DNA from: Pseudomonas sp. EpS/L25
GTDB lineage: Bacteria > Pseudomonadota > Gammaproteobacteria > Pseudomonadales > Pseudomonadaceae
Assembly (NCBI RefSeq): GCF_001512295.1
Contig: NZ_LNUP01000015.1
Coordinates: 343,058 to 407,057, forward strand
Length of the DNA: 64,000 nucleotides
Direction: 5' to 3'
The position numbers were made by a program, and so were the translations under genes. Within the stretch, counting starts at the first letter, position 1, and the number at the start of each line of letters is the position of its first letter. This document shows positions 121-49,715 of the stretch, one piece after another. The notes beneath the pieces are model-generated. The model had not been told where the DNA came from, did not search any database, and was given only the letters and a program-made list of their open reading frames with translations.

Positions 121-280
121 ATCCACAGGGAAAAGCTGACGATAGAAAGGTGGCAGGGGACCTTCCGCGGCCTGGCTGGTCGAAAAAAGCTTGGAGCTCC
201 CCGGCGTTTCGCCTACAAGTAGGGGGGAAAGGTTCCAGCCGCGCTGTACGCGGCCACTTCGCGATCTGATTCCTAAGGCG
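121..280. other. IS30 right flank, no gene seen
   Basis: Non-coding stretch between the transposase stop and the structured repeat. The right terminal repeat of the IS is probably within the first few tens of bases, but the left end is outside the window, so it cannot be delimited by comparison. No open frame here has a ribosome-binding site or recognisable product. Confidence 0.4.
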
Positions 281-412
281 TGTCTGAAAAGTCGCCGAGC
301 GAAGGTGAGGCAAGGCAAAAATCAGCGAGGAAGCGGAGTTTACGAGCGGTAAATGAGCATTCCGAGCTGATTTTTAACGCAGCATCACCGATGCGCAGGT
401 ACTTTTCAGGCA
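281..412 (+). repeat. Nested-stem structured element, copy 1 (upstream of glgP)
   Basis: An outer stem pairs 281-292 with 401-412 (11 of 12 Watson-Crick plus one G-T). An inner stem pairs 317-326 with 366-375 (perfect 10 bp, AAAAATCAGC/GCTGATTTTT). The 39-base apical core 327-365 contains GCGGAGTTTACGA and GGTAAATGAGCATTCCG and can form a further small hairpin (GTTTAC with GTAAAT). A second copy lies at 48526-48651 on the minus strand. Its core is 37/39 identical but its stems have different sequences. The element ends 29 bases before the glgP start, in the same orientation, so it could be a leader, an independent small RNA or a mobile repeat. I do not recognise the family. Confidence 0.75.
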
Positions 413-441
413 AGCCTAAGCGCTTGCAGAGGTCAATCCTG

Positions 442-48525: not shown

Positions 48526-48651
48526 TTCAAGACCTGCTGCGCGTCGGTCAAACTGCATTGAAAAGGCCTTCGGAATGCTCATTTACCATTCGTAAACTCC
48601 GCTTCCTCAGGCCTTTTCGCCTTGTTTGTCTCTAGCTCGCGAGGTCTTGAA
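48526..48651 (-). repeat. Nested-stem structured element, copy 2 (prs 3' region)
   Basis: Outer stem 48526-48535 with 48642-48651 (perfect 10 bp, TTCAAGACCT type). Inner stem 48560-48569 with 48609-48618 (perfect 10 bp, GAAAAGGCCT type). The 39-base core 48570-48608, read on the minus strand, is 37/39 identical to that of copy 1 and differs only by AT for GC in its loop. The strand segments between stems also match copy 1 (GAGC, CAAGGC, AA-GCAG, ACCGA-GCGCAG). It starts 6 bases after the prs stop, in sense with prs, and is followed by the prs terminator. Confidence 0.78.
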
Positions 48652-48657
48652 CCGCTT

Positions 48658-49599
48658 CTAACGGAACATCGCGCTGATGGATTCTTCGTTACTGATCCGG
48701 CGTACCGCCTCGGCCACCACTGGCGCGATGTCCAGCTGGCGGATCCGGCTGCAGGCCTGGGCCGCGGCGGACAGCGGAATGGTGTTGGTCACCACCAGCT
48801 CGTCCAGCACGGAGTTATCGATGTTCTCGATGGCACGGCCCGACAGCACTGGGTGGGTGCAATAGGCCAGGACCTTGGCGGCGCCGTGTTCCTTCAGGGC
48901 CTTGGCCGCATGGCACAGGGTGCCGGCGGTGTCGACCATGTCGTCGACCAGCACGCAGGTGCGGTCCTGGATGTCACCGATGATGTGCATCACTTCCGAC
49001 TGGTTGGCCTTGGGACGACGCTTGTCGATGATCGCCAGGTCCACACCCAGGCTCTTGGCCACGGCACGCGCACGCACCACGCCGCCGATATCGGGGGAGA
49101 CGATCATCAGGTTTTCGAAACGCTGGTCTTCGATGTCGTCCACCAGGGCGGGGGAGCCGTAGATGTTGTCCACGGGAATATCGAAGAAACCTTGGATCTG
49201 GTCAGCGTGCAGGTCGACGGTGAGCACCCGGTTGATGCCCACCACGGTCAGCATGTCGGCGACGACCTTGGCGCTGATGGCGACCCGCGCGGAACGCGGA
49301 CGGCGATCCTGGCGCGCATAGCCGAAATAGGGGATGACTGCGGTGATACGCGTCGCCGAGGAGCGGCGGAAGGCATCGGCCATCACCACCAGTTCCATCA
49401 GGTTGTCGTTGGTCGGCTCGCAGGTCGGCTGGATGATGAAGACATCCTTGCCACGCACGTTCTCGTTGATTTCGACGCTGATCTCGCCATCGGAGAACTT
49501 ACCGACAGAGACGTCACCGAGAGGGATGTGCAGCTGGCGCACGATGCGCCGTGCCAGATCGGGGTTGGCGTTCCCCGTGAAGACCATCATCTTGGACAC
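48658..49599 (-). CDS. prs: Ribose-phosphate pyrophosphokinase
   Basis: Makes PRPP from ribose-5-phosphate and ATP for nucleotide, His and Trp synthesis. A 313-residue class I enzyme: [12 protein letters not shown], the catalytic flexible-loop region [20 protein letters not shown], the [14 protein letters not shown] metal site and the PRPP loop [12 protein letters not shown] are intact. Translation starts at a GTG (49599) with AGGA upstream, as in other pseudomonads; ATGs a few codons inside would cut the first strand. It follows tRNA-Gln by 41 bases, probably on one transcript. Confidence 0.97.
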
Positions 49600-49640
49600 G
49601 CTGCAGTTCCTGCGGCTTGAGGTGGGTCTTGGAAGGAAAA

Positions 49641-49715
49641 TGGCAGGGGCGGCTGGATTCGAACCAACGCATGGCAGGATCAAAACCTGCTGCCTTACCG
49701 CTTGGCGACGCCCCT
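49641..49715 (-). tRNA. tRNA-Gln (anticodon TTG)
   Basis: A 75-base cloverleaf on the minus strand: acceptor AGGGGCG/CGCCCCT, D-arm GCC-AAGCGGTAA-GGC, anticodon stem GCAGG/CCTGC with loop TTTTGAT giving anticodon TTG, T-arm GTTGG-TTCGAAT-CCAGC, and genome-encoded CCA. It lies between ispE and prs, its standard Pseudomonas position. No integrase or duplicated 3' end is seen beside it. Confidence 0.97.

Follow-up and report, generated by a model that had tools for sequence, protein, structure and literature searches.

The window, a stretch of 64,000 nucleotides from Pseudomonas sp. EpS/L25, contains two copies of a 140-bp element, one near its left border on the plus strand (copy 1) and one further to the right on the minus strand (copy 2). 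Positions 1-120, directly left of copy 1, hold the end of an apparent IS30-type transposase gene (as named in the initial annotation), and near-identical stretches were observed at five further places in the EpS/L25 genome. The initial annotation described the two copies as a structured element, and its basic observations were reproduced: the core at 327-365 was identical to the minus strand of 48570-48608 at 37 of 39 positions, and the two helices were unlike in sequence between the copies, yet self-complementary within each copy. It had placed copy 1 at 281-412, which was nearly right, but the inverted repeat and the TAA duplication put the exact ends at 277 and 416. The top strand of copy 1 folded at -68.1 kcal/mol (z -8.4) and that of copy 2 at -62.6 kcal/mol (z -6.5), and none of 200 shuffles of either copy reached such a value; the stability of both folds is far above chance. 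The features of the two copies are given below, where A1 is an alignment of 32 sequences and R1 a covariance model whose training set included both copies.

277-416, plus strand: copy 1, whole 140-bp element, delimited by inverted repeat, target-site duplication (TSD) and exact empty site
298-398: R1 match to copy 1, 102.8 bits (copy 1 within the R1 training set)
274-276, unstranded: left TAA target duplication (3 bp) of copy 1, a single TAA in empty sites L353 and L355-L358
417-419, unstranded: right TAA target duplication of copy 1, from the TSD and the empty sites
277-295, plus strand: left terminal inverted repeat (5' side of the outer helix in the initial annotation), like the IS5-family end GGGTTTGTCTGAAAAGTCG
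398-416, minus strand: right terminal inverted repeat of copy 1
312-316, plus strand: AAGGC side of the AAGGC/AACGC asymmetric loop, conserved in A1
376-380, plus strand: AACGC side of the same loop, conserved in A1
317-326, plus strand: 5' side of the inner helix, AAAAATCAGC, double changes in 10 of 10 pairs in A1
366-375, plus strand: 3' side of the inner helix, GCTGATTTTT, double changes in 10 of 10 pairs in A1
327-328, plus strand: GA of the tandem G.A mismatch, facing 364-365 (A1 columns 33-34 and 72-74, by eye)
329-343, plus strand: upper helix GGAA, GC pairs, GSA loop side and apical GTTTAC, from A1
349-363, plus strand: 3' side with GTAAAT, GA, GC, A bulge and TTCC, from A1; paired 329/363 change in L360
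48519-48658, minus strand: copy 2, whole 140-bp element with degenerate GAGCCTGTTC-type ends
48537-48637: R1 match to copy 2, 93.7 bits (copy 2 within the R1 training set)
48659-48661, unstranded: TTA target remnant over the TAG stop codon of the upstream gene (ORF 48658-49683, minus strand)

The right flank of copy 2 is TGG, and its match to the left flank is gone. The initial annotation held that its reading would be refuted if there were just two copies worldwide, which is not the case: a 30-base core pattern, allowing up to 3 mismatches, matched the EpS/L25 genome 109 times (53 forward, 56 reverse), while the reversed-pattern control gave 0 matches. We took 100 of these matches with their flanks (9 left out), and both ends were resolved by script in 78 (22 left out). 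Element length was 136-145 bp in 56 of the 78 resolved copies, with a mode of exactly 140 bp (31 of 78). In 71 of the 78, at least 10 of the 12 terminal-repeat bases agreed. Identical 3-bp flanks were observed for 21 of these 71 copies, and in 20 of the 21 the flank was TNA (TAA, TTA, TCA, TGA). None of the 100 copies lay inside a predicted gene. Exact abutment was observed, as raw counts, to a stop codon in 27 of 78 copies and to a start codon in 0 of 78; the gene calls came from a simple codon-usage script, and all gene-relative counts are approximate. The abutment to stop codons fits a TNA target whose duplication restores TAA or TGA.

Several copies carried inserts. A recurrent left-arm insert of about 45 nt, starting with CGCAACGACCAACGGGAGTAACAGCC, gave variants of 185-186 bp (L017, L019, L022, L029, L036, L051), and GC-rich left-arm inserts like CCTGGGCGGCCCCAC were observed in L020, L055, L072 and L087. 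Right-arm inserts like CGGGGCCGCCCAGG, by eye complementary to the CCTGGGCGGCCCCAC-like left-arm inserts, were present in L065, L081 and L094, and another right-arm insert, CCGGGCTGGCGACCCAGG, gave variants of 156 bp (L009, L025, L037). At L107 (366-514) two tandem core units stood 119 bases apart near the start of a putative tRNA gene. Two to three elements in series within a few hundred bases were found at L261 (836-1296), L124 (591-1331) and L311 (1501-1723), possibly from insertion beside older copies.

The site of copy 1 was observed both empty and filled. All five congener loci read (L353, L355-L358; 97-99% identity) contained GATTCCTAAGCGCTTGC, with a single TAA and no element. When the flanks of copy 1 were joined and compared with other genus genomes, 7 matched over the joint, 2 were split and 3 matched on the glgP side only (the gene name is that of the initial annotation). 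Genome G753 carried an element at the orthologous place (L360), and G747 had a 144-base gap there, containing a core match. Between the orthologous copies in G000 and G753 the upper-helix pair 329/363 was changed on both sides, from G-C to A-T, which is a compensatory change at one locus. For another copy, L066, 9 of 12 other genus genomes gave a match that ran on over the joint between its flanks. Seven of these matches spanned 512-513 bases and two spanned 348 and 368, and some of the base-level alignments begin at the joint; two of the remaining genomes had no match and one a weak match. The EpS/L25 genome itself held the two flank pieces of L066 with the element between them. The empty and filled sites establish that the element has moved in the past. 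The element is a short non-coding unit with terminal inverted repeats and many copies, has duplicated target sites (the identical flanks in 21 of 71 copies, and copy 1 when compared with its empty site) and is polymorphic in its insertions (copy 1 and L066), which together are the marks of a MITE.

We examined the element ends beside those of resident transposons. The IS5-family elements of EpS/L25 (DUF4096 + DDE_Tnp_1) have ends GGGTTTGTCTGAAAAGTCG, similar to the ends GGCTTGTCTGAAAAGTCGCC of the copy-1 subfamily. A transposase of this family lies at L098 2336-3209. One of them, at L098 1064-1971, has a GGGTTTGTCTGAAAAGTCG-type sequence at one end and GGCTCTGTACGAAAAATACTGG at the other end only, the latter similar to the end GGCTCTGTACGAAAAGTCGCC of a second element subfamily; this second IS-matched end type, GGCTCTGTACG, was present at this single IS end. 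Similar resident IS5-family ends were thus found for 2 of the 3 element end types in the EpS/L25 genome, and we therefore regard the outer helix as a transposon end. The initial annotation had taken it for a helix with compensatory change in a structured RNA or a hairpin DNA element read by a protein; in our view it is instead the inverted repeat at the ends of a mobile element. The unrelated outer helices of the two window copies represent two end families, of which that of copy 1 matches the resident IS5-family elements. No IS partner for GAGCCTGTTC, the commonest end in EpS/L25, was found among the five loci of the DDE_Tnp_1 search, and R1 gave no fold match in these five transposase loci up to E 10. 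In G122, whose elements have CAGGCTGTTGAAAAA ends, no transposase-like ORF was seen by eye at five of six lone-end loci (L361, L362 and L364-L366). Among 80 matches surveyed for end types, more than ten types were distinguished by eye and many elements were 138-143 long, the end search being poor (8 or fewer of 16) in 20 of the 80. IS5-family groups use TA, TNA or YTAR targets. The shared ends suggest that IS5-family transposases may move the element.

Copies were observed in every orientation relative to neighbouring genes: of 100 copies, 27 were in tandem in the same direction, 29 in tandem in the opposite direction, 18 divergent and 17 convergent, with the neighbour undefined for 9. In view of this absence of orientation bias, we set aside a role as terminator or 3' UTR. 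Across five single-contig genomes, 61 of 148 copies were co-directional with replication (p 0.04), with no single genome significant and four of the five genome lengths being rounded values; any replication-fork preference is thus weak. By these gene and replication orientations, copies seem to be near neutral at their insertion sites.

The interior fold was supported by covariation in three alignments. A1, consisting of 10 EpS/L25 copies and 22 sequences from other genomes aligned by MAFFT, showed changes on both sides in 22 of 31 pairs, with 91.8% paired cells (73.1% in shuffles) and 196 double-changed cells (63 in shuffles). A2, with 82 model matches, had double changes in 27 of 31 pairs, and A3, with 104 sequences that include Bacteroidota and weak matches down to 25.7 bits, had them in 30 of 31, with 820 double-changed cells compared with 236; A2 and A3 were fitted to the covariance model and lean towards structure, and the model E-values are rough. 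In all three alignments the signal was above all shuffles, and sliding the partner by 1-3 columns removed most of it. The parts best conserved across phyla include unpaired modules, namely AAGGC facing AACGC, the tandem G.A (GA/GA) and the GSA/GA loop, which sits below the G.U-closed apical helix (GTTTAC/GTAAAT). Apical stems in other genomes were of 11 sequence types, in a count that required Watson-Crick complementarity. A variant in family f188 (L315, L316, L325, L332, L333) has CCGGAG or CCGCAG, CGTAC/GTACG and mostly TGAGGA, several core pairs having changed together. The structure with compensatory change and conserved loops that was proposed from the two copies is therefore strongly supported, and it is strand-specific. 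Rfam, with its skipping-rope motif, was searched as the initial annotation had advised: Rfam covariance models at gathering and relaxed thresholds gave no relevant match in the window or in 20 other-genome loci.

For an element that matters only as double-stranded DNA, a G.T mismatch is equivalent to an A.C mismatch. Inner helices in other genomes, counted without a model alignment for stems in which 5 or more of 9 pairs were Watson-Crick, contained 50 G.T/T.G and 7 A.C/C.A mismatches (18:4 after clustering of related stems), and A2, with the fixed wobble pair left out, gave 65:28. The EpS/L25 copies gave 15:10 with this stem filter and 20:21 with misaligned stems included; such a lack of asymmetry would be expected if the copies decay, and lends no support. 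The terminal repeats of other genomes had the same lean (52:21), so that polarity extends beyond the interior. The top strand was more stable than the bottom strand in 52 of 56 EpS/L25 copies and 90 of 101 other copies, while flanking control sequence was balanced (34 vs 43 of 78); with DNA parameters the counts were 52 of 56 and 94 of 101. The 101 other copies were chosen by the model, and the 56 EpS/L25 copies were chosen by sequence but are related to one another. What matters, by this result, is one strand with a fixed polarity, and RNA and single-stranded DNA fit equally.

The family was also found well outside Pseudomonas. The core pattern was present in 51 of 369 sampled genomes of the class Gammaproteobacteria (reversed control 0), and R1 at E 1e-5, with about 11 candidates scored per genome, matched 153 of the 369 genomes and 123 of 272 genera. 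Among genomes of the phylum Pseudomonadota, R1 matched 104 of 398, in 46 of 212 genera. A stricter exact pattern found at least 119 stretches in named genomes, and the 80 of these that were listed included Pseudomonas, Halomonas, Marinobacter, Nitrosomonas, a Desulfobacterales bin, and Alistipes and other Bacteroidota; many matches lie in metagenome bins, and individual ones may be contamination. All eight Bacteroidota loci scored by R1 matched, at 42 to 69 bits. By these sequence matches the element family is spread across phyla. Copy 1 matched 23 plasmid records, 22 of them from Pseudomonas, and the phage records searched gave 0 matches.

The landmarks of the element resembled those of the ERIC core. 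The ERIC core sequence used as query had matches in 5375 of 5426 E. coli genomes. Applied to an E. coli locus, R1, trained without ERIC, placed its best match on ERIC (17.6 bits, next 5.5), and a further model trained without ERIC, R2, likewise matched ERIC best when given this locus from three strains (23.3 bits). R2 matched 8 of nine ERIC copies in register; its top scores were 44.4, 32.9 and 29.2 bits, its two lowest were 15 bits, and the ninth copy, L338, gave no R2 match. The canonical ERIC core pattern gave 0 matches in the 369 class genomes, and the ERIC set was therefore drawn from one E. coli locus and plasmids. In the reverse direction, R3, an ERIC-only model from seven ERICs whose middle helix was paired in only 64% of cells, was searched at E 0.1 against 83 sources (350 kb) and gave 11 matches, of which 10 fell exactly on the element and its strand (best 42.1 bits) and the eleventh (L318 1330-1424) was ERIC-like by eye. 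That ERIC-like sequence and a member of the element family (1501-1578) lie about 76 bases apart on opposite strands of the same genome. R3 at E 0.1 matched neither window copy and 1 of 20 EpS/L25 loci (L001); with matches in just 10 of 83 sources, most element copies are beyond its reach.

ERIC and the element share the landmark order AAGGC, GA, GGAG-YTTAC/GTAAR-TGA, AACGC, and L311, with the intermediate loop CGGGAG/TGACCG, is a bridging form. At the level of a superfamily the two therefore share fold and landmark order, within the reach of R3 to 10 of 83 sources, while at the level of nucleotide similarity copy 1 had no blastn match in 20,395 E. coli records. Judged by sequence, the element is outside the definition of ERIC; on profile evidence, ERIC appears to be an enterobacterial branch of the element's family. 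In searches of the open-licence PMC literature, no title or opening of an abstract among the matches connected ERIC with such elements, and no match printed the 15 core bases.

The complementarity of the arms could have other causes than selection for a folded strand. At the DNA level alone, a palindromic MITE could keep its arms complementary by template switching (quasipalindrome correction) or homogenisation of ends, which would make compensatory changes cheaply; this would agree with the absence of G.T/A.C asymmetry in the EpS/L25 copies and with the mutually complementary left-arm and right-arm inserts noted by eye. Such a process leaves the conservation of unpaired modules across phyla unaccounted for, as well as the top-strand polarity, both in mismatches (50:7) and in stability (52 of 56 EpS/L25 copies vs 34 of 78 in the flank control), and we consider it unlikely. 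The polarity is matched equally well by a hairpin of single-stranded DNA that works at the replication fork or is the substrate of transposition, as in IS200/IS605 or integron attC; the stabilities computed with DNA parameters and the weak fork skew agree with this. The target duplications and IS5-type ends point instead to double-strand DDE transposition, and the skew is small, rests on rounded lengths in 4 of 5 genomes and is significant in no genome alone, which makes this reading improbable too.

A host cis-acting RNA, kept for gene regulation as a 3' UTR stabiliser, terminator or leader, is a very unlikely explanation given that the insertions are polymorphic among genus genomes and show no gene-orientation bias in 100 copies, even though the hairpin is strong, stop codons are abutted in 27 of 78 copies, and ERIC in Yersinia alters mRNA stability depending on its orientation, as described in PMC2229807. 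The structured RNA proposed in the initial annotation is thus supported in its strand-specific structure, and is not supported as an RNA gene or cis-regulator serving its neighbours. As for the likeness to ERIC, two unrelated hairpin MITEs could have converged on it: copy 1 lacks blastn similarity to E. coli records, the ends of ERIC differ, its middle helix is paired in just 64% of cells, and R3 misses most sources, the window copies included. We hold convergence to be quite unlikely, since the covariance matches are reciprocal and fall in the right place and on the right strand, the landmark order is shared, and L311 is a bridging form.

The reading that we prefer, and consider likely, is that the element is a non-autonomous MITE of about 140 bp, with IS5-type ends served in trans and a conserved top-strand fold that would function as RNA. 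IS5-superfamily transposases would act in trans on its DNA ends, and insertion would duplicate a TNA, TA or YTAR target; where the TNA target is itself a stop codon, its duplication would restore that codon. The conserved fold of the top strand consists of the AAGGC/AACGC bulged loop, the inner helix, the tandem G.A, the upper helix, the GSA/GA loop and the apical G.U-closed helix. As the family spread, this fold would have been kept while the ends were exchanged or re-evolved to suit the resident transposase. When a copy is transcribed, the fold most likely acts as RNA, for instance through protection of the insertion from harm or through contact with a host factor that it binds; this is our best guess, in preference to a role as regulator of each host gene. 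More tentatively, and with somewhat less than even confidence, we propose that ERIC and the element are branches of one old, SINE-like superfamily of structured MITEs, in which the conserved chassis that replicates would be the folded strand, probably in the form of RNA, and the ends would be interchangeable adapters for the resident IS5-type transposase, so that the family can cross phyla.

ERIC is a long-used genotyping tool for which we know of no mover and no settled function. If it is a twig of a widespread family with IS5-like ends, its mobilisation could be put to the test, and there would be a name for many intergenic hairpins that stand unannotated in Pseudomonadota and Bacteroidota. 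A single-strand fold that is kept across phyla while the ends change also raises the question of what a selfish element gains from structure.

Among known systems, skipping-rope is structured with variable stems, but neither it nor other Rfam motifs gave a relevant covariance match to the element. IS200/IS605-type elements make no target duplication, whereas TAA is duplicated at copy 1; they insert with fork orientation, and the copies here have a weak fork skew (61 of 148 co-directional, p 0.04). REP/BIME palindromes are 20-40 nt, and the unit here is 140 bp. Correia/NEMIS, RUP and BOX are each known from one or few genera, with a single end type. Like the element, they are small and multi-copy, many with inverted ends and TA-type targets, and transcripts of these and similar MITEs form hairpins, according to PMC2229807 and PMC10969869. 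The R0 and R2 repeats of Pseudomonas fluorescens resemble the element in being intergenic and MITE-like, with inverted repeats equal to those of resident ISs, and differ from it, by the description in PMC2718517, in their lengths of 89 and 110 bp, repeats of 24 and 43 bp and variable core. IS5-superfamily ISs (DUF4096 + DDE_Tnp_1) have terminal repeats like two element end families in EpS/L25, and unlike the element they encode a transposase and, at the five EpS/L25 transposase loci scored with R1, are without its fold. ERIC (IRU, RU-1; about 127 bp) appears to be a distant relative; like the element it is a short MITE with one long stem-loop, intergenic and multi-copy, with the same order of unpaired landmarks and reciprocal covariance matches at the family level. 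ERIC has other ends and targets and extra stem segments, while the element has TNA, TA or YTAR targets with IS5-type ends. ERIC is described in PMC10969869 from Enterobacteriaceae and Vibrionaceae, and the range of the element goes beyond this to other Pseudomonadota, Bacteroidota and a Desulfobacterales bin.
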